From Stichopus chloronotus (taxonomy: Eukaryota; Echinodermata; Holothuroidea; Aspidochirotida; Stichopodidae): a stretch of 64,000 nucleotides of DNA. The stretch lies in NCBI GenBank assembly GCA_021234535.1, contig CM037833.1:5788709-5852708 (forward strand), given 5' to 3'. Of the stretch, positions 3,478 to 33,078 are shown piece by piece (position 1 is the stretch's first letter; each line of letters begins with the position of its first letter). The position numbers and the translations under genes are program-made. The notes under the pieces are model-generated. The model was not told the origin of the DNA. It saw only the letters and a program-made list of their open reading frames with translations, and did not search any database.

Positions 3478-4390
3478 GAGGCTGCGTTGCCAAGTCTAAC
3501 AGCAAGGTCGTAACTTCGCCCCTGATTTAGTACGGGGTATCCTGTATTATTAAATTAGGGAAGTTCGTTACGAAGTTCGACATTCTAGTGTTGCATTTCT
3601 TTACAAAATTCGTACCACAATGCGTGTATACTAGGAACAGTGATGGATTAAGTAACAATGACAAGACGCACAGCTTACATGATGTTGTGAACTTTTCGTT
3701 GCCAGCCTCAGGTTCGTCTTCATTCGCCTCACTAAACATTGAAGTTTAACAGTAATTTCTTTGTTGGTACCGGGAAACATGCTTAAATCGCAGAGAAAAT
3801 ATAGAATACCATTTCCCCATTTGAAAATCGAGTAGGTACAACTGCCAGCACTATCAGGCCTATCCGTCTGTTGCCTAACACAAAACACACGATGACATAT
3901 GGCCAGGGTTGGAAAACCTTGCGAACGTGGTTGGCGGGAAATCCTGCATGTATGGACACATTTAAAAAACTAGAAAGCCAAAAGGTTTAGTGATTCCTTG
4001 CCTCATGATATACATTGTAACAAACATGAATCGCCCACATGACAAGCGTGAGATCCCACACAGTTATCCTACTTGAGATACCATCTTAGTAAGGTCAAAA
4101 CCTTTTGAAATCTCGTGACCCAAAATGACCTTTCACCTCCACTTGAAACAATAGGAATCACATACCCTATATGGCCATCACATGCTAAATATGAACAATT
4201 CACAAACTAAGTATAAGATCCCTCATATTAATCACCCTTGACCTTTTCTCACCCCAAATAACCTTTAATCTACACAAACAGCACTTTATTTTGTCGAATT
4301 ACAGCTATTGGTGGCAGCTCTTTCGTATTTGATTTTTTGGCGTTATGCCCATGAGGTCCTTGAAAATTAGCAAAAACTGATAACCCTATT
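3478..4390. other. segment present only in unit 1, between two TTAA sites
   Basis: In unit 2 the piggyBac right end and its TTAA are followed directly by ACCAGAATCT. In unit 1 about 915 bp separate the TTAA at 3,474 from the TTAA before the same ACCAGAATCT at about 4,394. Open frames here (3,140-3,890, minus) have no recognisable domain. From about 4,030 the segment holds a degenerate copy of the TGACC-type tandem repeat. No gene is supported. Confidence 0.6.
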
Positions 4391-5100
4391 AAACCAGAAT
4401 CTGGCATGACTTGCAATTTTGCCTTCAGTCTACTTAAAGACACAACACACAGTGCAAGTTTCCCTGGTTTGATATAGGGCGTTTAAAATACACCAACATG
4501 GCATACAAAGAAATTCGCTTTAACCATTGCTAAACCATTCAGTCTCATGAATAAATATCTGTCAAAGCTTTATCTCCACAAAACATTATGCATGTGATGA
4601 GTAACATATGCATCATTTGGGTGAACAAATTATATTGTTGAGCAAGAAATAAGTAAATTTCTGATCTGTGAGAATCTTATTCCTTGAAAATAAGGCTACT
4701 TATAATTCGTTATTTTGAATAATCTATCATTCTATGTCCATTGAGCACCTGGCTCAACAGACTGTATGATTTATTCTGGACATTGTGGTTTCTACTGGCA
4801 GTCAACTGTAATAAATTATGTCAGATAACAGTGACCAATTTGAACAGAGGTGGGTCAGTTACAATTTGATTCATTCAATTAAGCAATCACAGTTCATGGA
4901 CGCTCAAGGGTATTTGATCCAAATGATCAGTAATTTAGTTCCTTTTACAAAGCTAATAACCCGTGGTATATTTGATCAATTCGAATTTACAATTCATGCA
5001 TGCTCACATGTCCTTATGAGGACAGTGGCATAAGGTTGGTTATCGAAGAGACTGTGTTGGTATGTCCTAAAAGAAGTTCTCAAATCAACAAGAGGATTCT
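4391..5100. other. unique non-coding stretch
   Basis: AT-rich and duplicated at about 41,187-42,060. A 71-codon open frame at 4,818-5,033 persists in both copies with a few amino-acid changes but has no recognisable motif, splice context or start context. No gene is claimed. Confidence 0.4.
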
Positions 5101-17465: not shown

Positions 17466-17620
17466 AGTAGTATGGGGGAGTATAGACACCACACCTTTGT
17501 GATGTAAATTTTTCTATTGTGTCCGGATTAAGGATTATGAATATTAATGAGGGGGGCGGAATGGGGTCAGGTGATGTCATGCTTAATGCATGAATGACGT
17601 CATTATTAGAGCACCCTCTA
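17466..17620. repeat. Polinton left terminal inverted repeat
   Basis: About 155 bp matching the reverse complement of 32,926-33,078. By eye the arms differ by one G in a G-run, one inserted A and one A/G substitution. Contains a perfect TGACGTCA palindrome. Confidence 0.93.
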
Positions 17621-17632
17621 ATTTTTAAGTCT

Positions 17633-18240
17633 TTGGCCCTTCATTGTTCGCTGAGTTGAATGGACTTGAGTGGACGCTTTTTGTAATCCTAATTACCTCT
17701 TTAACTAAGATTAAGTTAGAGGAGACGACCAGTTTGAAGTATGATGGTAAAGAAATAGTTAAGAAAACAGCGCTGTTACGCTAGGGTTCTCAAATCCTAA
17801 TTGATTGAATAAGAAGTAAATTATTTTCTCTGAAGGAATTACTTAAGAAAGGATTATAGGTGTCTCTTGGCCCTTCATTGTTGGCTAGATGGAATTGGAC
17901 TTGGGATGGACCTAATTGTAATCCTAAGTATCTCTTTTAGTGAGATTAAGGTAGTCAAGATGACTATGTTGAAGTAAGCTTGTAAAGAAAAAAAAGTTAA
18001 GAAACCATCACTTTGACTCTGTAGTTTTCAAATCCAAATTGATCGGATAAGGACTAGTTTTTTTTTTCTTAAGGCATTACTTAAGAAAGGATTATAGATG
18101 TCTCGTTGCTCTTCATTGTTGGCTAGATTGAATTGGACTTGGGAGGGACGCCAATTGTAATCCTAAGTACCTTTTACCGAGCTTAAGTTAGTCAAGATGA
18201 TAAAGTATTTTTAAAAGGAATAGAATTTTTAAAGGAATAG
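17633..18240. repeat. left subterminal tandem repeats (about 3 units)
   Basis: Blocks starting near 17,633, 17,877 and 18,107 share 'CTTCATTGTTGGCTAGAT', 'TGTAATCCTAA', 'AGATTAAG.TAGTCAAGATGA' and 'ACTTAAGAAAGGATTATAG'. Period is about 230-245 bp and the third unit is incomplete. They lie between the inverted repeat and the polymerase gene. Confidence 0.8.
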
Positions 18241-18583
18241 TTGGAACTTGGAGACAAAGGAATGTCAGAGAGTCAAAAGAAGCTCATTAGGCAGTTTTAA
18301 AGACTTGGGTCAATAAAATGAAGTGAAAGTAAAGAAAAAAAAAATGCTGGGTGGTAACCGGTTGGGTGGATCGATCTTCAGGGTTATTGAATAACACTTG
18401 TTTTCTTCATGACGCAACAAGTTTCAGCCAAGTTGTACAGGCTGATTAACTATGCGGGAACATGTCTCTCTGAAAAAGAAATACGAATTTTCTTCATTCG
18501 TCGCTAAGCGTTTGAAGCAGAAACATCGCTCTTTACGTTATCTCTTCAAGAAAATCACTCTTTAGTTAACGAAAGAAAAAAAA
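18241..18583. promoter_or_regulatory. presumed polymerase promoter/leader region
   Basis: About 340 bp between the subterminal repeats and the polymerase ATG, with A-rich tracts near 18,335 and 18,572 and no clear TATA box. Called regulatory only by position. Confidence 0.3.
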
Positions 18584-18764
18584 ATGGCATCTATAGTCAA
18601 AATGATTGCTGACGCAAAGACAGTGGATGAACTGGATGGCATTGTACGTGACGAAAGTCTGACTGAAGTAGAAAGAGGATATTTGTTCAACCGTTTGTGT
18701 TACCTCACAACCAACGGATGTCCAGTTTCCCAAGTGGAAACTGGTGAAATTGAAGGGGAAGAAG
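18584..18764 (+). CDS. Polinton DNA polymerase B, exon 1
   Basis: ATG at 18,584, in A-rich context AAAAAAAATGG, opens 60 codons (MASIVKMIADAKTVDELDGI ... GEIEGEE) and ends one base into a codon before a GTGAGT donor. Exons 2 and 3 also start with AT after AG acceptors, so each junction makes a GAT codon in phase 1. The chain of phases is the main support for this start. The short helical, acidic N-terminus has no known domain. Confidence 0.62.
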
Positions 18765-19204
18765 GTGAGTTAATTTTACTTTTCTCTTTCGTATAAGTGT
18801 TTTCTATAGGTTTTAGCATAATACGTATTTTGTGTATGTGTGTGTTTGTATGTTTGTGGGGTTCGTGTGCGTGTGTGTGTGTATGTGTGTAGTTCTGTAA
18901 GTTTGACTAAAAGTGTCAATCGGTATTAGTGAAATTTTAGGCTTCGAATGGCATGCAGTTACACTACGTCGCCAAGCAATCAGTGTGGAGGAAAGTCGGT
19001 GGTTGTTATACTTCCCAAAAGTCTAGTCCCGTCGTTTTTAACTCCAAAAGATTTACATCAAATTTTGGACCTTCTTCAAAAAGGCCATTTCAGAGTATTG
19101 TTAGTTGTTGTTATTAAGATGTATTTTCTACATACACATATACTGTCTCATATAGCATATTGTAACATGTCCATGGACCGTTCTCTCATTTCACTGTTGC
19201 TTAG

Positions 19205-19303
19205 ATATTGTCCAGTATTGGACTCGGGCAGGGTCTCCTGAATTAGCTGCTAGTCAGAGAGATGCCTTGGAGAGAATTATGGACGGAGATCAGGACGAAA
19301 ATG
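19205..19303 (+). CDS. Polinton DNA polymerase B, exon 2 (repeat motif)
   Basis: 99 bp between a TTAG acceptor and a GTTCGT donor, phase 1 at both ends, exactly 33 codons. It encodes W-x-R-x-GSPEL-x-ASQ-x4-LER-x-M, the same motif that opens exon 3, so the exon looks like an internal duplicate. Skipping or including it would keep the frame. The donor is non-consensus after GT, which lowers confidence. Confidence 0.5.
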
Positions 19304-19560
19304 GTTCGTGTTTTTAATACTTTTTTTTATAATATTTTTTCCCCTACTTTTCTACTTTCTACGTTTTTTTTTTTTACTCTGTTTTATTTATTTGTTTATT
19401 CATTTCTTTACATTCGATTCATTCATTTATCCATTAAATAATTCATTCATTAATTCATTCATTAATTAATTCATTTTCTTTTTTTTTTTGTCGGGTAGTA
19501 TTTTGTCTCATTTCTTTGTTTATTCATTTATCTATTCCATTTATTTTTTCATTGGAACAG
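19304..19560. other. intron with T-rich and ATTC-repeat tract
   Basis: Low-complexity T runs and TTCATTCATTAATT repeats (about 19,380-19,480), ending in a TTGGAACAG acceptor. Confidence 0.5.
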
Positions 19561-22500
19561 ATGAGGTAAGCGAATGGCTTCGATCTGGATCGCCAGAACT
19601 GACCGCAAGCCAGGAAGTCGTCTTGGAGAGAGCAATGACTGGCGGGAGTCACACTGGAGAAGTCAACGAAGGCGCTTCTACTTCGGGGATTCCCAGAGAA
19701 AAAATAGGGGGGAAACGGGACCTAGCCGCTGTACAGGATGAAGACAGCGATGATGAAAACGATGAAGCAGCAAATGATGTAAGCCGTTTTTATGAAATTG
19801 TGAAAGTAAATGAAAAGTACGTTAAAAAGTACAAGGCAACCTCCAGCGATTACAACATTAATTTCAATTTTACGGATGGAGAAGACATTAACGCTCAGCC
19901 TGGTAATTTTACCCAAATTTTAGGCCAGATTTTTGAGCATTTGTTGCATCGCCTTAATGAAAATATTTCCCCCCACGATATGGTCCGAATTGTTCTTAAT
20001 TCGGATCGCTTAGATACGCCTATTGCACTTCCCTTTATTAGGAGACGAGATATGACAGTAGAACGAATGATGGCTAAAATTGAAAGTGTTTTACAGTCAA
20101 ATAAGGACTTGTACTTAGACGAGAACTTTCGTTTAAATTTTATCCACTTGAAAATGCCGTCGGGAGGTGGGAGGTCGAAAGGTTTTAACGGTTTGCAATC
20201 TGTAGAATCATTTTTCCGTGGTAAAAGGTGCATCATTAGGATACCGAAGGATGAGCATGGTGTTTGTTGTGCAAGAGCCATTGCTACGGCTATTGCTATA
20301 CACGAAGGCAAAGACCCCAAACTTGACAAAATCAAAGCTGGTAGAAAAATCCAGCTTGAATTGGCTAAACAATTACACGCTCAAGCAGGCGTTCCTGAGG
20401 GTCATTGCGGTATTCCTGAAGTGGAAGTTTTTCAAAATCATTTGAAATCAAGATATCAAATTATTGTTTTGACATCTTTGCGTTCTCCTTTAGTTTTGTA
20501 TAAAGGACCGCATTTAGCTAAAGGATTTCAAATCTACTTATTTTATCATGATGAACATTATCATCTTTTATTGCAACCAAGTGCGTTTTATGGATACGGC
20601 TATTATTGCCATTTTCATAACAAGTTGTACAATGACAGGTTTAAGCATAGTTGTGAAATGACATGTAACGTATGTTTCCACGGCAATTGTAAGCTTGGAC
20701 CAGACGAAGCCTGGCTTCATTGTGATAGTTGCAATAGGGATTTTAAGAACAGGCAATGCTTTAATTATCATTTGAAACCTAGTAATAATGGGGATAAAAT
20801 GTCTATATGCGAGAGATTTTTTATTTGTGAACATTGCAATAAGTTTGAAAAAGTTCGTAAAACTAAGAAGGGGGTTATTATTCCTCATCATTGCAATGAA
20901 TATTTTTGTACAGTTTGTAAGATCAAAGTGATGGACGGACACAAGTGTGCCATTCAGGTACACTTCGATAAAGTGGGGGACCACTGGGAAAGAAAACATA
21001 ATGGACTGAAAGCGGGTAATAGCGCGACATGTAACCAAAACAAAAGTAGCGAGAAAAAATCTTTGCCACACACCTACGTTTTTTATGATTTCGAAACCAT
21101 ACAAGAAACAGGAACTCATGTACCCAATTTGTGTGTGGCGCAAGTTGTGTGTGAAGATTGTGTAGATGAATCTCTTGAGTCTCCCTGCGAATATTGCCAA
21201 GAAAAACAAGTAATTTTCAAAGGAGCTAACACATTACATGAATTTGGTGAGTGGTTTATGTGAAAAAAGAATTCTACTTTCATAGCGCATAATTTTAAAG
21301 GATTTGACGGTTACTTCATCTTGGAATATTTGTATAAACTAGAATACGTACCGAAAATGATAAAGCAAGGAGGTAAGCTCATGCAAATAGAATTGCCATG
21401 CAACAATATTCGTTTCATCGATTCGGTCAATTTTTTGCCAATGCCCTTAGCAGATCTACCAAAAACCTTCGGTATTACTGAACTACAAAAAGGGTACTTT
21501 CCACATTTATTTAACACGTCTGAAAATCAAAATTACATTGGCCCTTTACCCTCTGCCTCTTTTTACTGTCCAGACTCTATGTCAACAAAAAAGAGACTTG
21601 CGTTCATGACGTGGTACGAAAACGAAGTCCAAACCGGTAAACTGTTTGATTTTCAAAAAGAAATTGTCAGTTATTGCGTCAGTGACGTCGATATTCTTAG
21701 ACGCTGCTGTTTACTATTTCGTAATTTTTTTATGGAGGTGACGAAGAAACATGTTAGTCTGCTATCTGGAGCTTCTTTTGAAAACGATTTAGATGGTATT
21801 GATTGTCACGTAGAGGTAACGGACAATGATGCAGAGTTAAACGCAGAAACTGAACGAGGGGTTGATCCATTTAAACATTGCATCACCATTGCTTCAGTAT
21901 GTAATCTTGTCTTTCGTCGTAATTTCCTACAAAGCGATTCTATTGCTGTCTTTAATAGTCAACAACAGAAAAATCATTCATATGCTGCATTACAATGGTT
22001 ACAGCATGAGCGTGTAAGGCGAAATATTCACATTGAAGATGCCCGGAATGGAGGGGAAAGAAAAATTGGCCCCTATTATGTGGATGGGTTTGCTCCTGAA
22101 ATCAATACTATATTTGCTTACCAAGGGTGTTTTTGGCACGGGTGCCCAGATTGTTATAATGAGGACACCTTACATCCATTGTACAATATCACTATGGGTG
22201 AAGTGTACAAACGAACCGTAAAGACCCGAAAGTTTTTTAGGGATGTTTGTCCAGAATACAAGTATGAAGAGATGTGGGAACATGAATGGTGCGCCCTAAA
22301 GGACGGCTTTTTTACTCCAGAAATGAGAAACAATATTAACAAAGTGCCAAAAAGTTTAACGCCCTTGACGCCCCGTGAAGCTTTCTTTGGCGGTAGAACA
22401 AATGGGATCAAATTATTTCATCAAGTTAAGGGGGAAGAACAAATTAAATACGTGGATTTTTGTTCCTTATATCCATTCGTAAATAAGTATTGCTCTTATC

Positions 22501-23744
22501 CACTTTCTCATCCCAAAATTTTAACGGTAGATTTATCTCACGATGTATCACGTTATTACGGTTTGGTCCGGTGTCAGATATTACCCCCTAAAAAATTATA
22601 TCACCCTGTACTGCCTGTAAAGATTCATGACAAACTGATGTTCCCCCTGTGCCGAAAATGTGTTGAAGAAAAGTCTAAAATAAAATGTACTCATTCAGAT
22701 TTAGAAAGAGCGATAACTGGAACCTGGGTGACTTTAGAGGTGGAAAAGGCTGTAGAAAAGGGTTATAAGATTTTAAAGATGGAAGTAGTTTGGCACTTCG
22801 AAGAAAAGGCGGTTTATAATAGAGAGACCAAATCAGGTGGTTTGTTTACCGACTACATAAACACCTTTTTGAAAATCAAACAGGAGGCATCTGGTTGGCC
22901 TTCATGGTGTAAAAGTGAGCAAGATCGAGAAAAGTACGTGAGCGAGTATGCCACGAACGAAGGCATTTTGTTGGACTCTGAAAAGATCACTTACAATCCG
23001 GGTCTGAGGGCTCTTGCAAAGCTGATGTTGAACAGCTTTTGGGGTAAATTTGGTCAACGACCAGACATGGAAAAAACTGAAATAGTTACATCAGTTGAAA
23101 GGTTGTACGATTTGCTAAAAGACACTGACAAAACTGAAGTCACTAACATTAATTTTGTAAACGAAGAGGTTTTGGAAGTCGATTACAAAGACAAGGAAGA
23201 ATTTTCACGACCAAATGCTAGAGTCAATGTGGTAATTGCTGCCTTCACTACGTGTCATGCTCGCTTGCGTTTGTATGACGTACTCGATCGGCTGCAAGAA
23301 AGAGTATTGTACTTTGACACGGACAGTGTGATTTACGTCTCTAAGCCGGGTGAATGGGATCCCCCCACAGGAGATTATCTTGGTGAACTTACAAACGAAA
23401 TCGATCCAAAGGACGGTCACTTTATTACAAGCTTTTGTACTGGCGGCCCTAAGAATTATGCGTATACCTTAGATTCAGGGAAAACGGTATGCAAGGTTCG
23501 TGGTATCACATTAAATTATGAAAATAGTAAAATAGTTAACTTTGACACCTTACACATGATGGTTCAAACAGTCGTTGCCAATGAAATTTCTCCAGTTGTT
23601 ACCGTTACTGACAATCATAAAATAACCAGAGATGTCAAAAAACGGAAAATTGTAAATAAAGTTATGAACAAAGATTATCGGGTTGTGTACGATAAAAGAA
23701 TCTTGTTAGATGATTTCAGAACCATTCCCTTCGGATACGGCTGA
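19561..23744 (+). CDS. Polinton protein-primed DNA polymerase B, main exon, one in-frame TGA
   Basis: Replicates the element by protein-primed synthesis. After an acidic N-terminus come a conserved pPolB region (CCARAIATAIA ... HYHLL), a Cys/His-rich segment with repeated CxxC pairs, exonuclease motifs FYDFET, AHNFKGFDGYF and YCVSDVDIL, then polymerase motifs A (DFCSLYP), B (KLMLNSFWGKFG) and C (YFDTDS). A TGA at 21,261-21,263 lies between Exo I and Exo II. Upstream and downstream are in the same frame with no indel, so it is a point nonsense change, a readthrough site or a sequence error. All catalytic residues are intact. The stop codon is at 23,742-23,744. Confidence 0.93.
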
Positions 23745-24035
23745 TTTGTAGATTCATTAAACTCACGTTTATCAAGGGCGGGTAGGGGGGGGGGACTGGG
23801 TAGGGGAGGAGCAGAAGAAAGGAGGGAGGTGAGGAGGGAGGTGATGAGGGAGGGTTAAGGTATGTTGACTCGTGTAACAACATGGTATGTAAATAACAAG
23901 AATATTGTCATTTGTTTGTTTTGTAACATTTATTGTAAACATTGAAAGAACTGGAGTAATAAAACAACAAGGAATCAAGAAAAGAAAAAGAATGGAAGAA
24001 AAAGGAGGAAAACATTACATAAATTATGAACTTGA
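23745..24035. terminator. shared 3' region of convergent transcripts with poly(A) signals
   Basis: AATAAA at 23,958-23,963 serves the + strand polymerase. Its reverse TTTATT at 23,929-23,934 serves the - strand gene cluster, so the predicted transcript ends overlap. A G-rich tract at about 23,780-23,862, with runs of 3 to 11 G on the + strand, lies just past the polymerase stop and could form G-quadruplexes. Confidence 0.5.
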
Positions 24036-24773
24036 TTATAGGGTATCCCACCTCAACAATTTATGTCGCTTCGTAAATGATTTATCAGAAATTGCCTTTC
24101 GACGTCTCTTATTAGGAGGGGTGGGTAATGCAAATCTTGGTTCACCAGATTTGTCCTTCTCTTTTAGCTGCTGCATAAATTGTCGCCTTTTTAAATGACC
24201 AACGTAGGCTTCCGGAAAATTAATCGCTTTTAAGCCCCGCATAAACTGTTGCCACCCAGTAGGATTAAAGTCTTTACGAGATTGTAACACATCGATGATT
24301 AAGTCGGTAACGTTGGAGCCGGGCACTTCCTTCCCTTCAAAGAGTAATTCCCCCTTAGAATTCCAATCAATGGTAGGATTATCTAATTCGGATAAACGTT
24401 GCCGACGAATACTTTCTAATAGTATTTTAGCCTTTCCCTTGATGGACTTTGGAAAACTTCGAATTAAATCTTCATCTGACTCTCTGGTGAGGGCAGCATC
24501 TTTTCCATCCTGTTGTGTTTTAGGCGTCCCGTTTTCATCCGTAACACGAAGCTCAATAGGCACCCCAGCTGATTTTCCCTCATCGAGGTAGCGTTGTAGA
24601 ATTTGGTGGTACAAGTCTACTTTCTCATAGATAGATAAATCCTTTCTCTCTAATGTGTTTTTCATGGCTTCGTCTAATTGTTCGAGCCTCGACGGGGTTT
24701 TGTCTTGATTGGTGGCATTAACCACTCTGGCCACGTCTTGAGGCATAAGAATCATCTTCTTCGTGAATTGCAT
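24036..24773 (-). CDS. conserved Polinton protein, 245 aa, unknown function
   Basis: Intact frame from ATG at 24,773, last gene of the - strand cluster, 15 bp after the preceding stop. The N-terminal part has AMKNTLERKDLSIYEKVDLY, a helical segment that I recall from uncharacterised Polinton-associated proteins of invertebrates. The middle is acidic. The segment PTGWQQFMRGLKAINFPE is followed by a basic, Lys/Arg-rich C-terminus with a likely nuclear signal (NKRRRK). No enzyme motif. Its place beside the ATPase and capsid genes suggests a structural or assembly role, which is inference. Confidence 0.75.
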   Translation of the reverse strand: MQFTKKMILMPQDVARVVNATNQDKTPSRLEQLDEAMKNTLERKDLSIYEKVDLYHQILQRYLDEGKSAGVPIELRVTDENGTPKTQQDGKDAALTRESDEDLIRSFPKSIKGKAKILLESIRRQRLSELDNPTIDWNSKGELLFEGKEVPGSNVTDLIIDVLQSRKDFNPTGWQQFMRGLKAINFPEAYVGHLKRRQFMQQLKEKDKSGEPRFALPTPPNKRRRKAISDKSFTKRHKLLRWDTL

Positions 24774-24788
24774 ACTGGTTGTTTGTTG

Positions 24789-25139
24789 CTATCTTTGGGT
24801 CACAGCACCGAGTAACATACCTCCCAATGACTGGATTATAGGTTTTAAAATCAAACTTAGAAATCCACCCCGCTGAACTAAAATGTCCTTGCGTTTCTTA
24901 TTGGATAAACGCTTATTTGAAAGATCCCTGAGATGTTTCTTGTACGGGGACAGTTTTGATTTCTGAGCACGAGACAAAGGTACGTTGCCTTTTACCACAT
25001 TGGCGGCACATTCGCATAGACTGGTTATTAGGTTAGAGTTGGCGTGTTGTAAGAAGGCTTTTCTTTGTCTAGGGGAACATTTTGATAAAAATTCGATTTC
25101 CCTGGCGTGATTCCTCAAACGACGTAATGCCGGTGCCAT
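24789..25139 (-). CDS. small basic Polinton protein with hydrophobic C-terminus, 116 aa
   Basis: ATG at 25,139. Helical basic N-terminus, then an LCECAANVVKGNVPLS segment and repeated Lys/Arg (LSNKRLSNKKRKDILVQRGG), ending in a hydrophobic tail (LSLILKPIIQSLGGMLLGAV) that could be a membrane-active or membrane-spanning helix. This layout is seen in small proteins next to Polinton ATPase genes. By analogy with adenovirus minor proteins it may be a cement or membrane-lytic factor, but I see no direct homology. Confidence 0.7.
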   Translation of the reverse strand: MAPALRRLRNHAREIEFLSKCSPRQRKAFLQHANSNLITSLCECAANVVKGNVPLSRAQKSKLSPYKKHLRDLSNKRLSNKKRKDILVQRGGFLSLILKPIIQSLGGMLLGAVTQR

Positions 25140-25199
25140 GGTGACTGTTCAGATAACGAATGAGGTCAAAGAAGCTGTGCCTTTTGTTTTTATTGGTTA

Positions 25200-25832
25200 T
25201 TACTTTGGTACGTAGCCATATTGGGTCTGATCAGGGAAAATATTTGTACGTAGCCGAAACTCTTCGGGGGTATACGGCTTTAGGTCGATAAAGAGATATC
25301 CATACGGCTCCTTCGTGGCGTCTGCAAATGCTTCTTGAACAAATTTGACTTGTCCCGGATACATCTGTTTTCCCAGATTGGATACTTGAGTTTTATCCCT
25401 AGGATTTTTAAATAGTACAATGTAATGTGCATTGAGCGTAATATTGCGCGTCTCTTTTGCCCCATAAAAAAAGTTTTGCAATATATAGATGACAGAAATA
25501 TTTCTGTGATGAGAACCTTTGGAAAATAAATCAGTTATGCGCTGATCGTTCCCATGTGACGTCATTATATCGTCTAAAATGATCAATGTCTTGTAAGTTG
25601 GGTCAAGATATGTCTCCAGATTCGACGGGAGGCCCTCAACAAAGCGGATTTTAGGTACGGCATCAGACAGCTCCACAAAAGCTGGCTGATATTCGCCATA
25701 GCAGTACACAATCCTCTCAGGCGTTCCTTCAATGACATTTTGCGTTAAGAGTTGCTTTACGAATTGAGTTTTTCCACAACCGGTAGGTCCTGCTATTACA
25801 CAGGTAAACGGATGTATCAACTTTGGATTCAT
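25200..25832 (-). CDS. Polinton packaging ATPase (FtsK/HerA, A32-like)
   Basis: 210 aa from ATG at 25,832. Walker A is GPTGCGKT at residues 15-22, directly after a hydrophobic strand. Walker B is LIILDD at 83-88. Length is in the usual range for Polinton/virophage packaging ATPases, which pump DNA into the capsid. It starts 102 bp after the protease stop and is transcribed with the capsid genes. Frame intact. Confidence 0.93.
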   Translation of the reverse strand: MNPKLIHPFTCVIAGPTGCGKTQFVKQLLTQNVIEGTPERIVYCYGEYQPAFVELSDAVPKIRFVEGLPSNLETYLDPTYKTLIILDDIMTSHGNDQRITDLFSKGSHHRNISVIYILQNFFYGAKETRNITLNAHYIVLFKNPRDKTQVSNLGKQMYPGQVKFVQEAFADATKEPYGYLFIDLKPYTPEEFRLRTNIFPDQTQYGYVPK

Positions 25833-25934
25833 CTGTAAGAATGAACCAGTAAAAGGTGCTCCTCTTCTTTTATGCGAATTCCGTCCTATAGTCAGAAATT
25901 TTCTGCGTGGTAGTTAACGTTACCTACATTTTTA

Positions 25935-26516
25935 CTAATTATGTAATTTTTTGTTTACCAAGCTCCCGTCTTTTTCATGAATGACTTTAGCAATTTGATG
26001 TGCCATTAATTCCTCATCTATTACAGGTAAACGAATGTCATAGCGTCTTTCAATAAATTCGTTTACTAACGCGTCATTCTGGTCAAAATCTTTTGTAAAT
26101 AGATTGACGATGTTCGGCATTGACATACCTCTGACTCTGTGCAATAGAAAATACAAGCAATACTGTCCACAAACTGCTGAAAAGAGACCTTGGATCTGTT
26201 TGTTATTTATTTTTTGTGATGACCTTGAGGCATACTTCTTTAAAAATGGTCCAAAATCAGAGGCGCATGCTTCCGGAGGACGTCCAAATGTATCGAAAAA
26301 TTCCACGTTTTCATCATTGACGTATATCGCTACCCAGTGACTTCCCGGTTCTCCCTGTCTATCCGTGTTTGCAACTAGACACCATGGTGGTCTCATGGAC
26401 CCAGTAGGCAAACAATCTGAAGGGAAAACTCCTCGACATAGAGGGCGCAGCACAGAATCCGCCTTGATTACTCTCAATATCTGTTTCGTATCCATGGGGG
26501 GCAAATTAAAAGTCAA
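25935..26516 (-). CDS. adenain-like cysteine protease (Ulp1 fold)
   Basis: 193 aa. Predicted catalytic set in adenain order: His60 (GSHWVAIY), an acidic residue in VEFFDTFG (Asp75), Gln109 and Cys116 (QGLFSAVCGQYC). It would mature capsid proteins. The ATG at 26,516 overlaps the end of the major capsid gene by 11 bp. A second ATG at 26,495 (MDTKQIL) would avoid the overlap and starts at a typical position for the family, so I favour it slightly. Frame intact. Confidence 0.92.
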   Translation of the reverse strand: MTFNLPPMDTKQILRVIKADSVLRPLCRGVFPSDCLPTGSMRPPWCLVANTDRQGEPGSHWVAIYVNDENVEFFDTFGRPPEACASDFGPFLKKYASRSSQKINNKQIQGLFSAVCGQYCLYFLLHRVRGMSMPNIVNLFTKDFDQNDALVNEFIERRYDIRLPVIDEELMAHQIAKVIHEKDGSLVNKKLHN

Positions 26517-27825
26517 TGAATACGTTGCGAGACTTATCCACTTCTACTACGGCATCATACTCAGCGTACACGATCACACTGACACTTTTTGTCAGAGCAT
26601 GTTCAAATTGCATTTCAAGACGCACATTACCATTTTTACGCAGATTAAAATGCCCTCCGTTGGCCAGATCAGGCGTCATATCAAAGGCATACAAGGTGTA
26701 CCCTCTTCCATAGTCACTGCGACTTATCTGATTTCCTTTATCAGTAAACATACTATTTAACCCTGAAAACAGGGTTTGGTAAGACATAATGTAACGCTCA
26801 TCTGCAAAATTTGGGCGAAGTGGTTTCCATGGTAATTGTTCTCCATCGACGTATAAGGCCAAAAAGTTCAGGTGATGGTGATGAAAATTAAATGGATTTT
26901 TATTGTAAGCTCCGTTTAACGCCTCTGTATCGACACAGCCCAACACAATTCGTTTTGGGAGACTGCCTAAGAACAAACTTTCGCGTTTGAATATTAAATT
27001 CCCTCTCGGAATGGACAATGTCGTTACTTCTACTCTGTTGATGGGGTATTTAGCAGTACCTTGTTCCAAAGCCTTAGCATGCGCTAAAGCCACTTCGGGA
27101 TGAACTTTAACATGTCGAACGTAAAGAGAAGCGTCTACAATGCGCACTTTAAAAGCTGCATTTGCTTCACTCGATAACAAGCAAAACTCATTTTTGCTTC
27201 GGTGTAGCTTTAGTTTTAATTCTACGCCTCCTAACAACATCTTCTGCTGAACGAACATATCACAATGTAGGGGACCAACTAAATCGACGACTTTGCTGTT
27301 TTTAACAAACTCATATCTGCTTTTCAATCCTTCATTTACTACTTGCTCATCTCCATTAGGATTACAAGAATCCATTTTTCCAGCAGTATCTTTATAAAAC
27401 AAGCTTCCTGTGAGCTGGGATTCCTTCGCCTCGGGGCCATAAGAAAGCAACGTCTCCAGTAGGGCACGGTAAGGGTAAGTGTTTGTAGAAGGCGTTACTA
27501 AACGGTCGTTCAGCGTCACATCAACTTCGGAAAAGAGAGACTGTAACATTAAATTAACAGGTCCAACGTTTGCGTCTTGCGGGAGATCATCACCGTTGTT
27601 TTGAAGCAACTTTGCTCTCACGTGAAGAATAGTTTGAGACAAATCAAGATAATCTTCAGTTGATCCCTGCACAGAGAATTGTATCGGAGCTGAATCGGTG
27701 ATGTTGGTAAGAGGGTGATACTGGATCCAATTACCCTTCATGATACTAGTTTGAGTCGGAGGCACGGTAAATAAATCCAGCTCTGATTTCATGCATTCGC
27801 ATGAATGATTATGGACAAGGGCCAT
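26506..27825 (-). CDS. major capsid protein (double jelly-roll)
   Basis: 439 aa from ATG at 27,825. Near the N-terminus comes TSIMKGNWIQYHPLTNI, then PIQFSVQGSTEDYLDL and LHVRAKL, a pattern shared by Polinton/adintovirus hexon-like proteins. Further on are a TPSTNTYPYRALLETLLSY segment and late strands SYQTLFSGLNSM and FDMTPDL. Length is in the range expected for this family. It lies 11 bp after the basic core-like gene and overlaps the protease gene. Intact, no stops. Confidence 0.9.
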   Translation of the reverse strand: MALVHNHSCECMKSELDLFTVPPTQTSIMKGNWIQYHPLTNITDSAPIQFSVQGSTEDYLDLSQTILHVRAKLLQNNGDDLPQDANVGPVNLMLQSLFSEVDVTLNDRLVTPSTNTYPYRALLETLLSYGPEAKESQLTGSLFYKDTAGKMDSCNPNGDEQVVNEGLKSRYEFVKNSKVVDLVGPLHCDMFVQQKMLLGGVELKLKLHRSKNEFCLLSSEANAAFKVRIVDASLYVRHVKVHPEVALAHAKALEQGTAKYPINRVEVTTLSIPRGNLIFKRESLFLGSLPKRIVLGCVDTEALNGAYNKNPFNFHHHHLNFLALYVDGEQLPWKPLRPNFADERYIMSYQTLFSGLNSMFTDKGNQISRSDYGRGYTLYAFDMTPDLANGGHFNLRKNGNVRLEMQFEHALTKSVSVIVYAEYDAVVEVDKSRNVFIDF

Positions 27826-27836
27826 GATAATTCAGA

Positions 27837-28229
27837 TTACACATCAAAAATATCCGGAGATCTTTTCACTCTCTTGGCTCGTCGCCTTCTGATGCTTTTA
27901 GAATTTGCTTTTCTTTTTAAAGGTTTTCTTCTTGACGTTGATCCTTCAAGTACTCTGGTAGTGATCCGCTGTCCTGCCTGACCCAGTCGTCTCTTAGCGG
28001 AAGTTTTTATGTGTTCTCCTTGCAGTGCGTCATTCACAATTTCCGTTCCAGTGTATAACGCCTGTTTACCAAGTTCTTTAGCCCCCCGTTTTAAGAATGG
28101 CAATGCTGACCTGGCTAATCGACCCAATATGCCGCCTAATCCGTGCCCCTTCTGATGCTGATAGCCAGTGAACACTGGTAATCCATGTCCGACTTGTCGG
28201 AGGTAGTAATCTTCAAACGAATTCTTCAT
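27837..28229 (-). CDS. small basic core/capsid-associated protein, 130 aa
   Basis: ATG at 28,229, 14 bp after the minor capsid stop. GHGLGGILGRLARSALPFLK resembles the amphipathic segment of proteins adjacent to the Polinton capsid gene, and GAKELGKQALYTG follows. The C-terminus is very basic (RRKPLKRKANSKSIRRRRAK), suiting DNA binding or nuclear targeting. It resembles the adenovirus pVI/pX group in layout only, and the function is inferred. Confidence 0.72.
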   Translation of the reverse strand: MKNSFEDYYLRQVGHGLPVFTGYQHQKGHGLGGILGRLARSALPFLKRGAKELGKQALYTGTEIVNDALQGEHIKTSAKRRLGQAGQRITTRVLEGSTSRRKPLKRKANSKSIRRRRAKRVKRSPDIFDV

Positions 28230-28243
28230 GTTAAAAATTATGG

Positions 28244-28984
28244 TTAGATAAAAAGAGAAGATTTGGTCTGCTTAAAGTGAAGTTTCGCGATCACACGCCC
28301 AAGTTGGAATGGAATCAATTGTCCAAGATCATCCCTTAAATCTATTTGTATGTTCTGTATTTGCTTGGATTTGACGGGGATGTAGTGAGGATTGTTGTAT
28401 GATACAGTGACGTGCTCCCCCGGTCGCTTTTCCCCTATTTTAACAACACGCAGTAAAGGTACGTGAGAGTCACCCACTCTCTGATGTTCTACTATGTCAC
28501 TGTAAACAAAAAAACTAGTGACGCCACCATGCACATCGGAAATCACGTCACCGATGTGTAATCCCTCTGTGCATATCTTGTTATGGTCTAGGAAACCAAA
28601 CATCTGGCTGAGACCCCGAAGATCAAGTCGATTACCTCGTTTTACCCTCACCGACGTTTTGAGAGAATGTTTATTGAGATGGAGTTTCACGTTCAGTGTC
28701 TCCTCCTTAGTTAAAGTGTCGTGGAAAGCATCAATGACATTTTGGATGTTGTCATAATATCCATGTGGTATACATATTTCCCTGTGGTTGATGAGCATAC
28801 TGCAATTTGCCTCCGTCACATTATGCCAATTGAAAGGATACTGAATTTCACAAAGCGCTACTTCCCAATTGCCTGATAATACAATAGGTTCCGCTAACTG
28901 CGTGGTAAAACTGGAAAGCGTGTTGTTTGGAAAATATTGGTAGGAACTGTTGCTGGGTAACGTCACGTAAAAATGTGATGCCAT
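28244..28984 (-). CDS. minor capsid protein (penton-like)
   Basis: 246 aa from ATG at 28,984. The start HFYVTLPSNSSYQYFPNNTL and the segments SGNWEVALCEIQYP and NVIDAFHDTL are typical of Polinton/adintovirus penton proteins with a single jelly-roll. The ATG shares one base with the integrase stop (TAATG), so the two frames are directly coupled. Frame intact. Confidence 0.85.
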   Translation of the reverse strand: MASHFYVTLPSNSSYQYFPNNTLSSFTTQLAEPIVLSGNWEVALCEIQYPFNWHNVTEANCSMLINHREICIPHGYYDNIQNVIDAFHDTLTKEETLNVKLHLNKHSLKTSVRVKRGNRLDLRGLSQMFGFLDHNKICTEGLHIGDVISDVHGGVTSFFVYSDIVEHQRVGDSHVPLLRVVKIGEKRPGEHVTVSYNNPHYIPVKSKQIQNIQIDLRDDLGQLIPFQLGRVIAKLHFKQTKSSLFI

Positions 28985-30066
28985 TATGTCTTCTCAACGT
29001 CCTTTACCCAACTGTTAAACTTGGTTGGATATCCCTGCCATTTAACGAAATATTCAGTGTGTCCTCCTCTCCTTCGTTTTCGCAAAACCTTTTCTACTCT
29101 GAAGAGGGCACGTTCATGTACATTAACACTTTGTATTTCGTGTTCATAAAAGGTACCATCAATTACCTCACCACCCCAATCTTGGAGTTTGTACACGGGA
29201 ATAGGTTTAGATATCCTCTTCACCACGGTGAACACTTCTTCACTCCAATTAGGCAAATAACCCTTTTCAAATTTGAGTTTTGATTTTGCAATTCTCACTT
29301 TTTCTCCTAAGTTAAATTTAAAATTGTGGTTAGGTGTACGGCCACGGGAAAAATATAACGTTTGCCACACACTTCCTTCATTTTCTTTCGTCACGTCGAT
29401 AGGTCTCATTTTAATGGATCTATGATAAGCACGATTGTAACCTTTTACCAGTTTTGGAAGAACATCAATGTATTTCAGAGAATTGCGATGTGTAAAGTCT
29501 TTCCACATTCTTGATTTCAAAGTGCGATTAAACCTTTCTACAACAGAGGCTTTTGTTTCATTATTGGTCGTAAAATAATGAATATTTTTATCTTTTAAAA
29601 ACGCTTGAATGTGTTTATTCATAAATTCACCACCTCTGTCAGTATGAATTTGAAAGGGCGTCCTTCCAGAGGTAAACATGGTCTTGATAGCTTTTAATAC
29701 CACAGGGCCTGTTTTACTTTTGAGAGGTACCACCCAGGCATGCTTAGATAAAACATCAATGCATGTTAATAAATATTTAAACCCTCGATTGTACCGTGAG
29801 AGAGAACTTAAGTCAACCAAATCCATCTCCCATTGGTGATCTATTGCACTGACCAATACTCTGTTTCTAAGGAACTTTTTTCTTGCGCTTTTATGTAATG
29901 TGTACACATCTTGCTTTTTCAACCAATCGCGGATTGCTTTCCGGGTAATCTGAAACAGTCCCTCTCGCTTGATCTCTGAGTAAAGTTTGTTAACACCTCC
30001 ATAACTTGCAGGGTGACTGGGATCGTAGTAAATCTTCTTAAGGTATCTTTCGTGGTTTGCATCCAT
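28984..30066 (-). CDS. Polinton integrase (rve) with C-terminal chromodomain
   Basis: Inserts the element into chromosomal DNA. I start at ATG 30,066 (MDANHERYLKKIYYDP), giving 360 aa. The frame is open upstream to about 30,300, but that part is a low-complexity hydrophobic/Pro stretch read from a G-rich tract; an ATG at 30,126 is an alternative. Catalytic triad: Asp82 (WEMDLVD), Asp143 (HTDRGGEF), Glu177 (VVERFNR). The C-terminus (FRVEKVLRKRRRGGHTEYFV to WQGYPTKFNSW) is a chromodomain, which may steer insertion by binding modified histones. Intact. Confidence 0.93.
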   Translation of the reverse strand: MDANHERYLKKIYYDPSHPASYGGVNKLYSEIKREGLFQITRKAIRDWLKKQDVYTLHKSARKKFLRNRVLVSAIDHQWEMDLVDLSSLSRYNRGFKYLLTCIDVLSKHAWVVPLKSKTGPVVLKAIKTMFTSGRTPFQIHTDRGGEFMNKHIQAFLKDKNIHYFTTNNETKASVVERFNRTLKSRMWKDFTHRNSLKYIDVLPKLVKGYNRAYHRSIKMRPIDVTKENEGSVWQTLYFSRGRTPNHNFKFNLGEKVRIAKSKLKFEKGYLPNWSEEVFTVVKRISKPIPVYKLQDWGGEVIDGTFYEHEIQSVNVHERALFRVEKVLRKRRRGGHTEYFVKWQGYPTKFNSWVKDVEKT

Positions 30067-30621
30067 TTTGGGCTGACAGTTCTTAGTTATGAGAAGAGCG
30101 AAAACTGAATGACAAGCTCTTGTCATGGATAATATCTTAAATAAAAGAATATGTCTAAATGCATGTATTACAATGACGTTGGATGGACGAGGTGGGAAGG
30201 AGGTGGGAAGGGTGGGGGGAGGGGGTATAGATGGAGTGGGACAGATTAATATTAATAACAAAGAAATGAAAAAGACTAACAGAAACGACAAAAAACACAC
30301 AAAAATGTCATTGTGAAGAGGAAATTGTAATTTGCGGTATTAAAACAAAAATGAATAAAAATTCAATGTATTTGCTTAACATTTACTTACACAGCAATTG
30401 TTTAAATAAAATGTATAACGTAGTCGTCATTAGTTAATGTTTAGAGGTAGAAGGTAGGATAATTTAATATTGAATAGAAACGACAAGACAAAATTTAAAT
30501 GTAATATTGTACTCGAGCTTTTAAATCGTGAGAGAAAATATTTACATTATAATTACTCAACATTTAGTAACAAAATCACACGACTTTAAGAAATTCCTAA
30601 CAATTAAAGGTTTAACAACTT
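30067..30621. promoter_or_regulatory. integrase upstream region with G-rich tract
   Basis: Contains a G-rich + strand tract at about 30,187-30,240 (GGTGGGAAGGAGGTGGGAAGG), then AT-rich sequence to the end of the next gene. Position suggests promoter and poly(A) functions; no motif is decisive. Confidence 0.3.
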
Positions 30622-31209
30622 TTAATGTTTCAAATCTTTCCTCAGGTCTAACATTATCCTTCGTAAAAGATTTGCTTGCTTACGTAATGTACGATACACA
30701 AAATGGTACATTTCCCACAATACTCCCGATGCAATATTTATCTTTAATGCTCGACATTTAATAAGATATTTTGTTTTAAAAACATTTTCATTGTCCAAAT
30801 TTTTAACAGCATCATCTAGAAATATGTCAAGTCTTTCCTCGTCCGACGCCATAAGACACCAGTCGTGCTGTAATTGGCTTGGATGATTAACACTGCAACC
30901 ATAACATAAATCACCACTTTGTCTGCTTATAAAGTCCCAAAGTTCAGTACAAATGACTTTCTTTGCTAGCCTACGTAACATTTTTTTCGTATGTTCGGTC
31001 GTTTGAACCTCGTCCACTACGATGTCATCATCAATGAACAGCCTCTTCGGTCGACATCCGGGATGACTCCTCTGAATGTGTCTCGAAACTTTGGGTGCTT
31101 TTACACTTGGTTGGTGTGTACTGACCTTCGTGATTTCCAGGTCTGCCTCTTCATCTGAATCCAGAACCAAGATTACTTCATTTTCTCCCTGAAAACCACA
31201 AACGAACAA
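30622..31209 (-). CDS. SIM and zinc-like Polinton protein/exon, no ATG of its own
   Basis: The open frame has no ATG near its 5' end and is preceded by TTTTGTGG-TTTTCAG, a good splice acceptor at about 31,189, so it is probably a downstream exon of the tandem-PC4 gene or of another leader. It begins with EVILVLDSDEE, a hydrophobic core followed by acids, as in SUMO-interacting motifs. Later, CYGCSVNHPSQLQHDWC places Cys102, Cys105, His109, His115 and Cys118 as a possible zinc site, and the rest is helical. This Cys/His segment looks like uncharacterised Polinton-associated proteins I recall. No enzyme function is claimed. Confidence 0.6.
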   Translation of the reverse strand: MFVCGFQGENEVILVLDSDEEADLEITKVSTHQPSVKAPKVSRHIQRSHPGCRPKRLFIDDDIVVDEVQTTEHTKKMLRRLAKKVICTELWDFISRQSGDLCYGCSVNHPSQLQHDWCLMASDEERLDIFLDDAVKNLDNENVFKTKYLIKCRALKINIASGVLWEMYHFVYRTLRKQANLLRRIMLDLRKDLKH

Positions 31210-31222
31210 CGTGAATAGCTAA

Positions 31223-32002
31223 CTAGAAACCAACGCCGTACAAACTACTGCAATCAGAAACCAACTGAGTGAGTCTTTCTTCAATGTTAGGCACGACACT
31301 CTCTAACCACATCCACTCAGTGCAGGTTAAATTGATGCCTTTCTTTGTCGGATATATCTTGCCATACACGTTATACCGTTTGTGTTCTCGAAGACTGACA
31401 TACAACTGTCCGTTGAAATAAGAAACTCCTGCCATTTTGAAAGGCTTCTCAACAGTGTTAGTTTCCTTCTCAGGTTGTAAATGGTGCTTTGCATAGTCTG
31501 CAACTAATGGGTTCTGTTCCCCCTCTTTCAAAGCTTTGCTGATTTTCGGCATGATCATTTTTAGTTCACTCCACTGCTGAATAGTTAGACTGAGCCCTTT
31601 TTTGCCTGGTAGTAATTTATCACACTCATCCTTCATATAATATTCTCTAATGTCAACGTAAACCTTGCGGCGAAATGTGTGTACTCGTACATGCCTATTG
31701 CCTTCGAGATGAAACGTATCATTGTTACTCACTTGTGATGATTTGCCACCTGTTTCGTCCGATCCGCTCTGCAATGGCGATACCGTTGGTGAAGGCGTCT
31801 CTGACGAACGAACAGGACTCGGCCACGATAATTGAGTCTCCTCATCACAAGGCGTGGAAGGGACTTCTGTCAAGTTGTATTTGGCTTTCTTCGTTACCTC
31901 CAAGTCCAGAGGCACAGCATTTTGACGTCGCAAGCGCTTTAGTTCCGCACGCATCTTTTTTGTTGCCTCAGTGGGGGTAGATGTCGTTACAGGAGAATCC
32001 AT
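31223..32002 (-). CDS. tandem PC4/Sub1-fold protein, 259 aa
   Basis: ATG at 32,002, the 5'-most gene of the - strand cluster. Residues 1-94 are Ser/Thr/Pro-rich with a basic start. Residues 95-157 form a PC4-type domain (FHLEGNRHVRVHTF, VYVDIREYY, LLPGKKGLSLTIQQW). Residues 186-244 form a second, more diverged one (VSYFNGQLYVSLREHKRY, YPTKKGINLTCTEW). PC4/Sub1 proteins bind single-stranded DNA and act as transcription coactivators. Two in tandem could mimic the PC4 dimer. In a protein-primed element a role in replication-fork ssDNA or late transcription is plausible but inferred. Confidence 0.72.
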   Translation of the reverse strand: MDSPVTTSTPTEATKKMRAELKRLRRQNAVPLDLEVTKKAKYNLTEVPSTPCDEETQLSWPSPVRSSETPSPTVSPLQSGSDETGGKSSQVSNNDTFHLEGNRHVRVHTFRRKVYVDIREYYMKDECDKLLPGKKGLSLTIQQWSELKMIMPKISKALKEGEQNPLVADYAKHHLQPEKETNTVEKPFKMAGVSYFNGQLYVSLREHKRYNVYGKIYPTKKGINLTCTEWMWLESVVPNIEERLTQLVSDCSSLYGVGF

Positions 32003-32105
32003 TATAATTAAATTACTATGTCAAGATGAAGCTCGTTGCAAAACGTCTAAGTTTAACTTGAATAAAAGATGAAACTAGTTGAAAAACATTCAAGTCCAAC
32101 CTTTT

Positions 32106-32335
32106 GGCAAGATGATACTCGTTGAAAATTGTTCTAAGTCCAAACTTTTGACCAGATGAAGCTCGTTGAAAAAAATCTAAGTCCAAAGATTTTAGATGAG
32201 GTGAGATCAACGTTAAGTTTGGCAAGATGATAGTCGTTGAAAATTTTCTAAGTCCAAACTTTTGACCAGATGAAGCTCGTTGAAAAAAATCTAAGTCCAA
32301 AGATTTTAGATGAGGTGAGATCAACGTTTGGGAAC
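32106..32335. repeat. right subterminal direct repeats (2 x about 115 bp)
   Basis: Units at about 32,105-32,219 and 32,220-32,335 are nearly identical (GGCAAGATGATA.TCGTTGAA ... GATGAGGTGAGATCAACGTT). Each contains smaller repeats of 'TCGTTGAAAA...TCTAAGTCCA', and more single copies sit at 32,025-32,105. They lie just upstream of the tandem-PC4 ATG, where a promoter/enhancer would be. The - strand open frame across them is an effect of the repeat. Confidence 0.8.
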
Positions 32336-32925
32336 GATGTGAACAGTGAGACGTCTCGAAGCAGAGTGATTTTATACAGGGTTTTACTGAACACCAGTAT
32401 CTCTTCTAATAATCCTCAATCAATGAGACGACTATAAGCTTTTTCCATTAACTACATTAGTTTGAAGACCTGGGTAATCAATTCCCAGACGGAACAAATA
32501 ACCTCATCCCATCTTTCTAAGCTGTTTTTTCAGTCATTAGAAGTAATCCTCCTGCAAAATTTCTAATGATTTCTCTGTTTAATCTACTTCATTATCATTA
32601 TTTTTTTTTTTTTTTTTACAATCCTCTCCCGATAGCACTTAAGTTAAGCTTCTCATTAAAAAAAGTTCTTTCAATTCATTACCACTTGCTGGTTATGTCA
32701 ATCTTGACGACCAAAACAAGTTAAAACTTGCTCTCTACCTGACACGTCTTATCCTAAAACTTAACAAATGGAGGGCGCTTGGATCATCATGACGTGAGCA
32801 TTTTCATTGTCTTGTACCTCAAACTTTTTAATTAGAGGGCGACCTATCTTATGACGTCAGATGAAATGATGTCATGTTACATCTGGCAAACACTCATTCA
32901 TATTCAGTAACTTAAACTTTTAAAC
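32336..32925. other. right subterminal non-coding region
   Basis: AT-rich with a T run at about 32,602-32,618 and a TGACGTCA-type site near 32,854. No coding frame. Confidence 0.5.
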
Positions 32926-33078
32926 TAGAGGGCGCTCTAATAATGACGTCATCATGCATTAAGCATGACATCACCTGACCCCATTCCGCCCCCTCATTAA
33001 TATTCATAATCCTTAATCCGGACACAATAGAAAAATTTACATCACAAAGGTGTGGTGTCTATACTCCCCCATACTACT
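32926..33078. repeat. Polinton right terminal inverted repeat
   Basis: 153 bp, reverse complement of 17,466-17,620 with about three differences. Ends CCATACTACT directly before a run of seven G. Confidence 0.93.

Follow-up and report, generated by a model that had tools for sequence, protein, structure and literature searches.

A sea cucumber Polinton carries a tandem-PC4 gene whose start may be an exon shared by two products

The window analysed here, a 64,000-nucleotide stretch of the genome of the sea cucumber Stichopus chloronotus, contains a Polinton that carries on its minus strand a gene with two PC4 domains (Pfam family PF02229) in tandem. Reading frames and splice signals suggest that the start of this gene serves as an exon common to two products, a point missed by an earlier note on the same DNA. 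We propose, with a probability of roughly 0.6, that the gene encodes a tandem PC4 pseudo-dimer of the type called MOSUB in adintoviruses, that this protein binds the single-stranded DNA (ssDNA) of replication, and that alternative splicing joins its start to an adjoining open reading frame (ORF) with an HPSQ motif. To a wider proposal we give the same probability: echinoderm Polintons may carry a splicing switch, in which a common first exon leads either to a PC4 protein, by retention of the intron, or to an HPSQ fusion. Several Polinton lineages of a single genome, and a second sea cucumber, would have retained the switch but differ in the N-terminus, the number of PC4 domains and the position of the unit. 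Its first exon would code either for a WW-like module or for an N-terminus that is short and conserved, the PC4 protein would have one or two domains, and the window-type HPSQ exon would begin with the SUMO-interaction-like VILVLDSDEE. Coordinates in the feature lists are those of the window; a slash marks a splice junction.

31223..32002, minus strand: tandem-PC4 protein ORF, 259 amino acids, ATG at 32002
31514..31720, minus strand: PC4 domain 1 (D1), residues 95-163, from the PF02229 profile and the predicted structure
31253..31450, minus strand: PC4 domain 2 (D2), residues 185-250, first hairpin shortened, from PF02229 and the predicted structure
31733..32002, minus strand: putative shared exon 1, 90 codons, donor CAA/GTGAGTAA, phase 0
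31189..31732, minus strand: putative 544-nt intron holding both PC4 domains and the stop codon
30622..31188, minus strand: putative exon 2, 188 codons and stop, encoding the CYGC-HPSQ-H motif protein

The tandem-PC4 protein and its two domains

The earlier note had placed a tandem-PC4 ORF at 31223-32002 on the minus strand, and its coordinates, its ATG and its length of 259 amino acids proved right. A Pfam profile search matches PF02229 to this ORF in two stretches (98.4 bits, E 1.6e-28). When the genome, 719 Mb in 267 contigs, was searched in six frames with PF02229, D1 scored 69.1 bits on its own and D2 35.2 bits, so that each half lies over the curated cut-off of 25 bits. Aligned with each other, the halves score 93, against a maximum of 45 in 1000 shuffles, and share 18 of 54 residues. 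Human PC4 and MoSub1 chains in the PDB match D1 by sequence (E 8e-11 to 1e-6), and no PC4 chain was reported for D2 up to E 10. The window-type N-terminus gave no Pfam match up to E 0.01, and the PUR family was absent among the Pfam matches of the whole protein up to E 1. The PHROGs search gave one match, to a phage transcriptional regulator (E 2e-6).

In the AlphaFold model of the full chain the PC4 fold, a curved antiparallel sheet followed by a helix, is present twice. D1 of this predicted model superposes on 1pcf with a root mean square deviation of 0.8 A, and the arrangement of D1 and D2 resembles PUR-alpha repeats I-II, the best structural match over both domains (AlphaFold, Foldseek). 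Single-chain pairing of the PC4 domains, as put forward in the note, is upheld as a prediction by the placement of the domains in the model. The DNA-contact positions scored were R70, F77, R86, W89, R100 and K101 of PC4. D1 keeps all six, allowing W89Y and R100K, and D2 keeps four (the F77, R86, R100 and K101 equivalents), allowing R100K. A single-chain ssDNA-binding module is the best reading of the protein. In brief, the two domains would fold on each other as a pseudo-dimer in the manner of PUR-alpha, and contact with DNA would fall mainly to D1. Protein-primed strand displacement is the presumed mode of Polinton replication, and we infer that the protein binds ssDNA and coats the strands displaced in this process.

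Searching the genome with the window protein gives 60 matches. Four copies, on C5 (that of the window), C9, C19 and C15, are 99-100% identical and show 3 or 4 substitutions in 777 nt. The frame is broken in several copies, for example in HPSQ of L007 and L012 and in PC4 of L005 and L006. Selection was assessed by Nei-Gojobori counts between copies, as replacement (dN) and synonymous (dS) divergence. Between the window and locus L007 the whole gene gives dS 0.41 and dN 0.117, and between the window and L008 dS 1.72 and dN 0.41. Since dN is well below dS between divergent copies, both PC4 domains are kept by purifying selection.

Some observations tell against a selected, DNA-binding tandem protein. 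The AlphaFold model was built on four sequences only. D2 lacks the R70 and W89 equivalents, and K208 sits at W89. Between the near-identical copies there are 1 synonymous and 2 or 3 replacement differences, which are too few to speak of selection.

With R70 and W89 lost, D2 may bind DNA weakly or act only as a pairing partner. It is quite possible, though not what we favour, that D2 is a degenerate pairing scaffold and that DNA is bound by D1 only, in an asymmetric pseudo-dimer. The missing equivalents, the loss of part of the first hairpin and a non-aromatic residue (His) at W89 in D2 of another tandem gene, L019, are consistent with this. Against it, D2 retains four contact positions and is the better conserved domain between the window and L007, with a dN/dS of 0.081/0.554 (0.15) against 0.107/0.389 (0.28) for D1.

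The earlier note had called for a survey of other Polintons for the same gene. We found at least 71 PF02229 matches at at least 53 places in the genome, 18 of them with two domains; places are matches within 1 kb joined, the counts are lower bounds, and the likely host SUB1 gene is included. The PC4 genes fall into three kinds. Genes of the window type have two PC4 domains and adjoin HPSQ and the integrase. The second kind joins a WW-like module to a single PC4 domain (L016 at 3920-4588, L017, L018, L020, L015, L025 and L029) and, among the loci seen, mostly adjoins the protease on the opposite strand. A WW match was present in five of six scanned ORFs of this kind, with E 7e-5 to 0.02 and all under the Pfam cut-off; for several relatives in the databases, P0061 and P0078 among them, Pfam assigns both WW and PC4. 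P0061 bears the name RNA polymerase II coactivator p15. The third kind is a second tandem type, L019 (4082-4978), which matches PF02229 in two stretches with 83 bits and adjoins the protease of another Polinton lineage. In a tree of 32 short domains, D2 of L019 does not group with D2 of the window. The two tandem forms may have arisen separately, in a tree too short to trust.

The WW fold binds proline-rich peptides such as the polymerase II tail, and the fusion of PC4 to a WW-like module in related lineages would suit a protein that is mainly a transcription cofactor or modulator of host transcription, acting on element promoters or RNA polymerase II rather than as a replication ssDNA-binding protein. 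An excerpt of PMC4350104 likewise describes eukaryotic PC4/Sub1 proteins as active in transcription as well as DNA repair, which counts against a purely replicative role. We consider a mainly transcriptional role rather unlikely: the N-terminus of the window type has no Pfam match at the threshold given above, and the title of a report on the phage T5 PC4 homologue implicates that protein in recombination-dependent replication.

A putative shared exon and the HPSQ reading frame

The HPSQ ORF lies at 30622-31209. Its first Met is codon 70 past the putative acceptor and precedes the Cys motif, so that 69 codons stand between acceptor and Met. Compared with L008, these codons have dN 0.41 with 33.5 of 44.3 synonymous sites different, and compared with L012 dN 0.31 with 37.2 of 45.3 different. 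The codons of exon 2 before the first Met are under strong purifying selection. Directly before them is a putative 3' splice site, GGTTTTCAG/GGA in the window and also present in L007 and L012. In L008 and L011 the site is CAATTGTAG/GAT, and the acceptor doubles as the in-frame stop TAG.

On the donor side, the window and L001-L012 all have GTG AGT as codons V91-S92 just before D1, and the phase of the window donor, 0, is that of the acceptor. The word GTGAGT also precedes PC4 in L029 and L032. Genes of the WW and L019 types have the donor inside D1, at LG/GKR (GGAG/GTAAG, phase 1, 14 loci), and phase-1 acceptors were found before the HPSQ-like ORFs of L016-L020, L024 and L025. The scan found no in-frame PC4 donor in L026, L030, L031, L033, L013 or L014, the last two also being without GTG AGT at V91-S92. 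In L026 the HPSQ motif is upstream of PC4.

Codon usage at the phase-1 donor points the same way. Four divergent members (L015, L016, L025 and L019) use the same codon at 7 of 30 conserved residues, and the donor codons make up three of the seven; the hypergeometric probability is 35/4060 = 0.009 for a site picked post hoc. The LGGK motif of L019 domain 2 has a non-donor codon.

Gene models of the sea cucumber Holothuria leucospilota use the same kind of junction. In an alignment of nine HPSQ-type models, made without P0068, P0083 and P0088, seven join FPLG directly to the HPSQ exon. Another model of this species, P0029, exits the PC4 frame near the donor position of the window type.

From these signals we infer that splicing takes place. 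The unspliced transcript would give the PC4 protein, and a transcript spliced from the donor at codon 90/91 to the acceptor at 31189/31188 would join the 90-residue start to the HPSQ protein. With the shared exon either spliced or retained, one promoter would yield two products in a ratio set by splicing. If this is true, these Polintons use host splicing to balance two proteins, and gene models running across such units would need rereading, for example those of H. leucospilota that are called coactivator p15 or hypothetical protein. We regard the shared-exon arrangement as the part worth following.

The HPSQ protein itself has the motif CYGC-x4-HPSQ-x2-H; its AlphaFold model has a mean predicted local distance difference test score (pLDDT) of 41, and nothing was drawn from it. 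Exon 2 begins with GENEVILVLDSDEEA, which we take to resemble a SUMO-interaction motif.

Several findings speak against the splicing switch. The acceptor scan found none in L015 and left out L021, L022, L023, L027 and L028. The donor word also matches three places off the PC4 frame (L019, L026 and L027). The codon test on the window set is suggestive at most: 11 of 43 codons are identical, the two donor codons among them, and the value of about 0.06 for these two was computed by hand for a site picked post hoc. The H. leucospilota junctions are those of annotated gene models, and the remaining two of the nine (P0059 and P0060) splice deeper into PC4. Exon 2 of L008 has a Met at codon 9.

It is conceivable that there is no splicing and that the HPSQ ORF is a separate cistron with an internal or non-AUG start, in which case GTGAGT and GGAGGTAAG would be kept for protein reasons. 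Donor-like words are common, as the off-frame matches illustrate, and a Met is available at codon 70 in the window and nearer the acceptor in L008. Intact vertebrate Mavericks have also been described with intronless ORFs, according to an excerpt of PMC8097293. We nevertheless think this improbable, because the codons preceding the HPSQ Met are under purifying selection, the stop TAG of L008 and L011 supplies the acceptor AG directly before a conserved exon, donor and acceptor phases agree in two lineage groups that use different phases, and another species has gene models with the same junction. In literature on Polinton, Maverick and adintovirus, "alternative splicing" did not appear among the matches listed.

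The host element and its neighbourhood

The earlier note's assignment of the gene to a Polinton is confirmed by the ends and core genes of the element.

17466..33078, no strand: Polinton element, 15,613 bp, ends AGTAGT...ACTACT, defined by inverted repeats, end motif and core genes
17466..17630, plus strand: left terminal inverted repeat
32916..33078, minus strand: right terminal inverted repeat
32370..32376, minus strand: TATAAAA, 374 nt upstream of the PC4 ATG
32019..32296, no strand: six copies of a 34-nt direct repeat, between the TATA box and the ATG

The end motif (AGT)2//(ACT)2 is known in vertebrate Mavericks, as reported in an excerpt of PMC8097293. A run of 7 G flanks the element on each side, which is compatible with a 6-bp target duplication that cannot be delimited because the run is present on both flanks. 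Above the Pfam cut-offs, the element encodes a packaging ATPase (Adeno_IVa2/Pox_A32) and an rve integrase that has a chromodomain. PolB is in two ORFs of 591 and 807 amino acids (19488-23744, plus strand); the second matches DNA_pol_B_2 (E 1.2e-41) and the first has no Pfam match. Matches to the double-jelly-roll capsid and the adenovirus protease are under the Pfam cut-offs, and these capsid and protease ORFs recur near PC4 at other loci of the genome.

The direct repeats upstream of the gene had been taken for a promoter. The repeats exist, but their variable number and their place downstream of the TATA box, ahead of the ATG, do not support the promoter reading. Counted upstream of the gene as a 15-mer of the 34-nt repeat with up to 3 mismatches, they occur six times in the window, eight times in L002 and five times in L004, which are near-identical copies; L007 has one, and L008 and L012 have none. 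The array sits in the probable 5' leader. A TATA word is present within 500 nt in the window, L002, L004 and L008, and it is not universal, being missing in L007 and L012.

The neighbourhood of the gene was sampled in 20 stretches around chosen matches to the window protein. A core Polinton-type ORF lies beside PC4 in 19 of these, L011 having only HPSQ, and a capsid ORF is present in 15. Two 94% copies, L005 (G000:C17:12477204-12477932) and L006 (12482781-12483509), lie about 5 kb apart in inverted orientation, and each has one in-frame TAG at the same place.

That the gene is a captured and decaying host SUB1 copy without function in the element is hardly credible. In its favour, PC4 genes form a family in hosts, L033 holds a likely host SUB1 exon, and window D2 and L029 stand on the side of the SUB1, fly and algal domains in the domain tree. 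Against it, dN/dS is well below 1 between divergent copies, the sampled genes lie among Polinton-type ORFs as described, and D1-type domains are across a split of 0.94 support from the SUB1, fly and algal domains. Host SUB1 as the immediate source was also considered and rejected; in the tree the L033 exon groups with human PC4, and the grouping is weak.

Relatives and comparison with known systems

Outside algae, the best named relatives are from H. leucospilota. One match in this species, P0057, has an Mcl-1-like name and looks like a fused gene model. Two sea urchin proteins, P0091 (uncharacterized) and P0085 (a putative RNA polymerase II transcriptional coactivator by annotation), have a PC4 domain of the LGGKR type, as in the Polinton genes; they may belong to elements or have been domesticated. 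Scans of viral contigs with the protein, the WW+PC4 alignment and the capsid alignment gave no confirmed relative. Among the matches listed in the Polinton, Maverick and adintovirus literature, in the parts of the text available there, we found no description of a PC4 gene in Polintons and none of a Polinton ssDNA-binding protein. The conserved PC4 gene is a direct candidate for the latter.

The earlier note knew of no described Polinton protein of this layout; that nothing similar is on record is not supported. Foldseek against the predicted viral structures of BFVD ranks MOSUB of a Branchiostoma lancelet adintovirus first (A0A5H3CIS2, E 5.9e-7, 203 amino acids, 190 alignment columns, 20% identity, TM-score 0.64 by target length). 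MOSUB of a Bos-associated insect adintovirus ranks 14 (A0A5H3CT48, 197 amino acids, 178 columns, 8% identity). With MOSUB as the top match, what appears to be a gene of this kind already has a name in Polinton-related viruses, and the gene was reportedly named in the adintovirus paper. The tandem-PC4 layout is less new than first thought, since the MOSUB name is on record for a similar viral protein.

MOSUB and the window gene both belong to Polinton-related animal viruses or elements, are of similar length and have matching predicted folds, whereas their sequence identity is 20% and 8%; the comparison is of predicted folds, not of sequence or gene order. Green algal multi-PC4 proteins (for example in Trebouxia and Coccomyxa) also have several PC4 domains per chain, three or four by eye in the sequences inspected and several with DEK-C, in contrast to two in the window protein. 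PUR-alpha repeats I-II are a single-chain pair of PC4-like repeats and resemble the window protein in this pairing; at about 10% identity they belong to a different sequence family, and the likeness is in fold only. Human PC4 and MoSub1 share with the window protein the domain family, the fold and the contact residues of D1, with Tyr at W89 in MoSub1 as in D1. They have one domain per chain and form homodimers, according to an excerpt of PMC4350104, whereas the window protein has its two domains in one chain.
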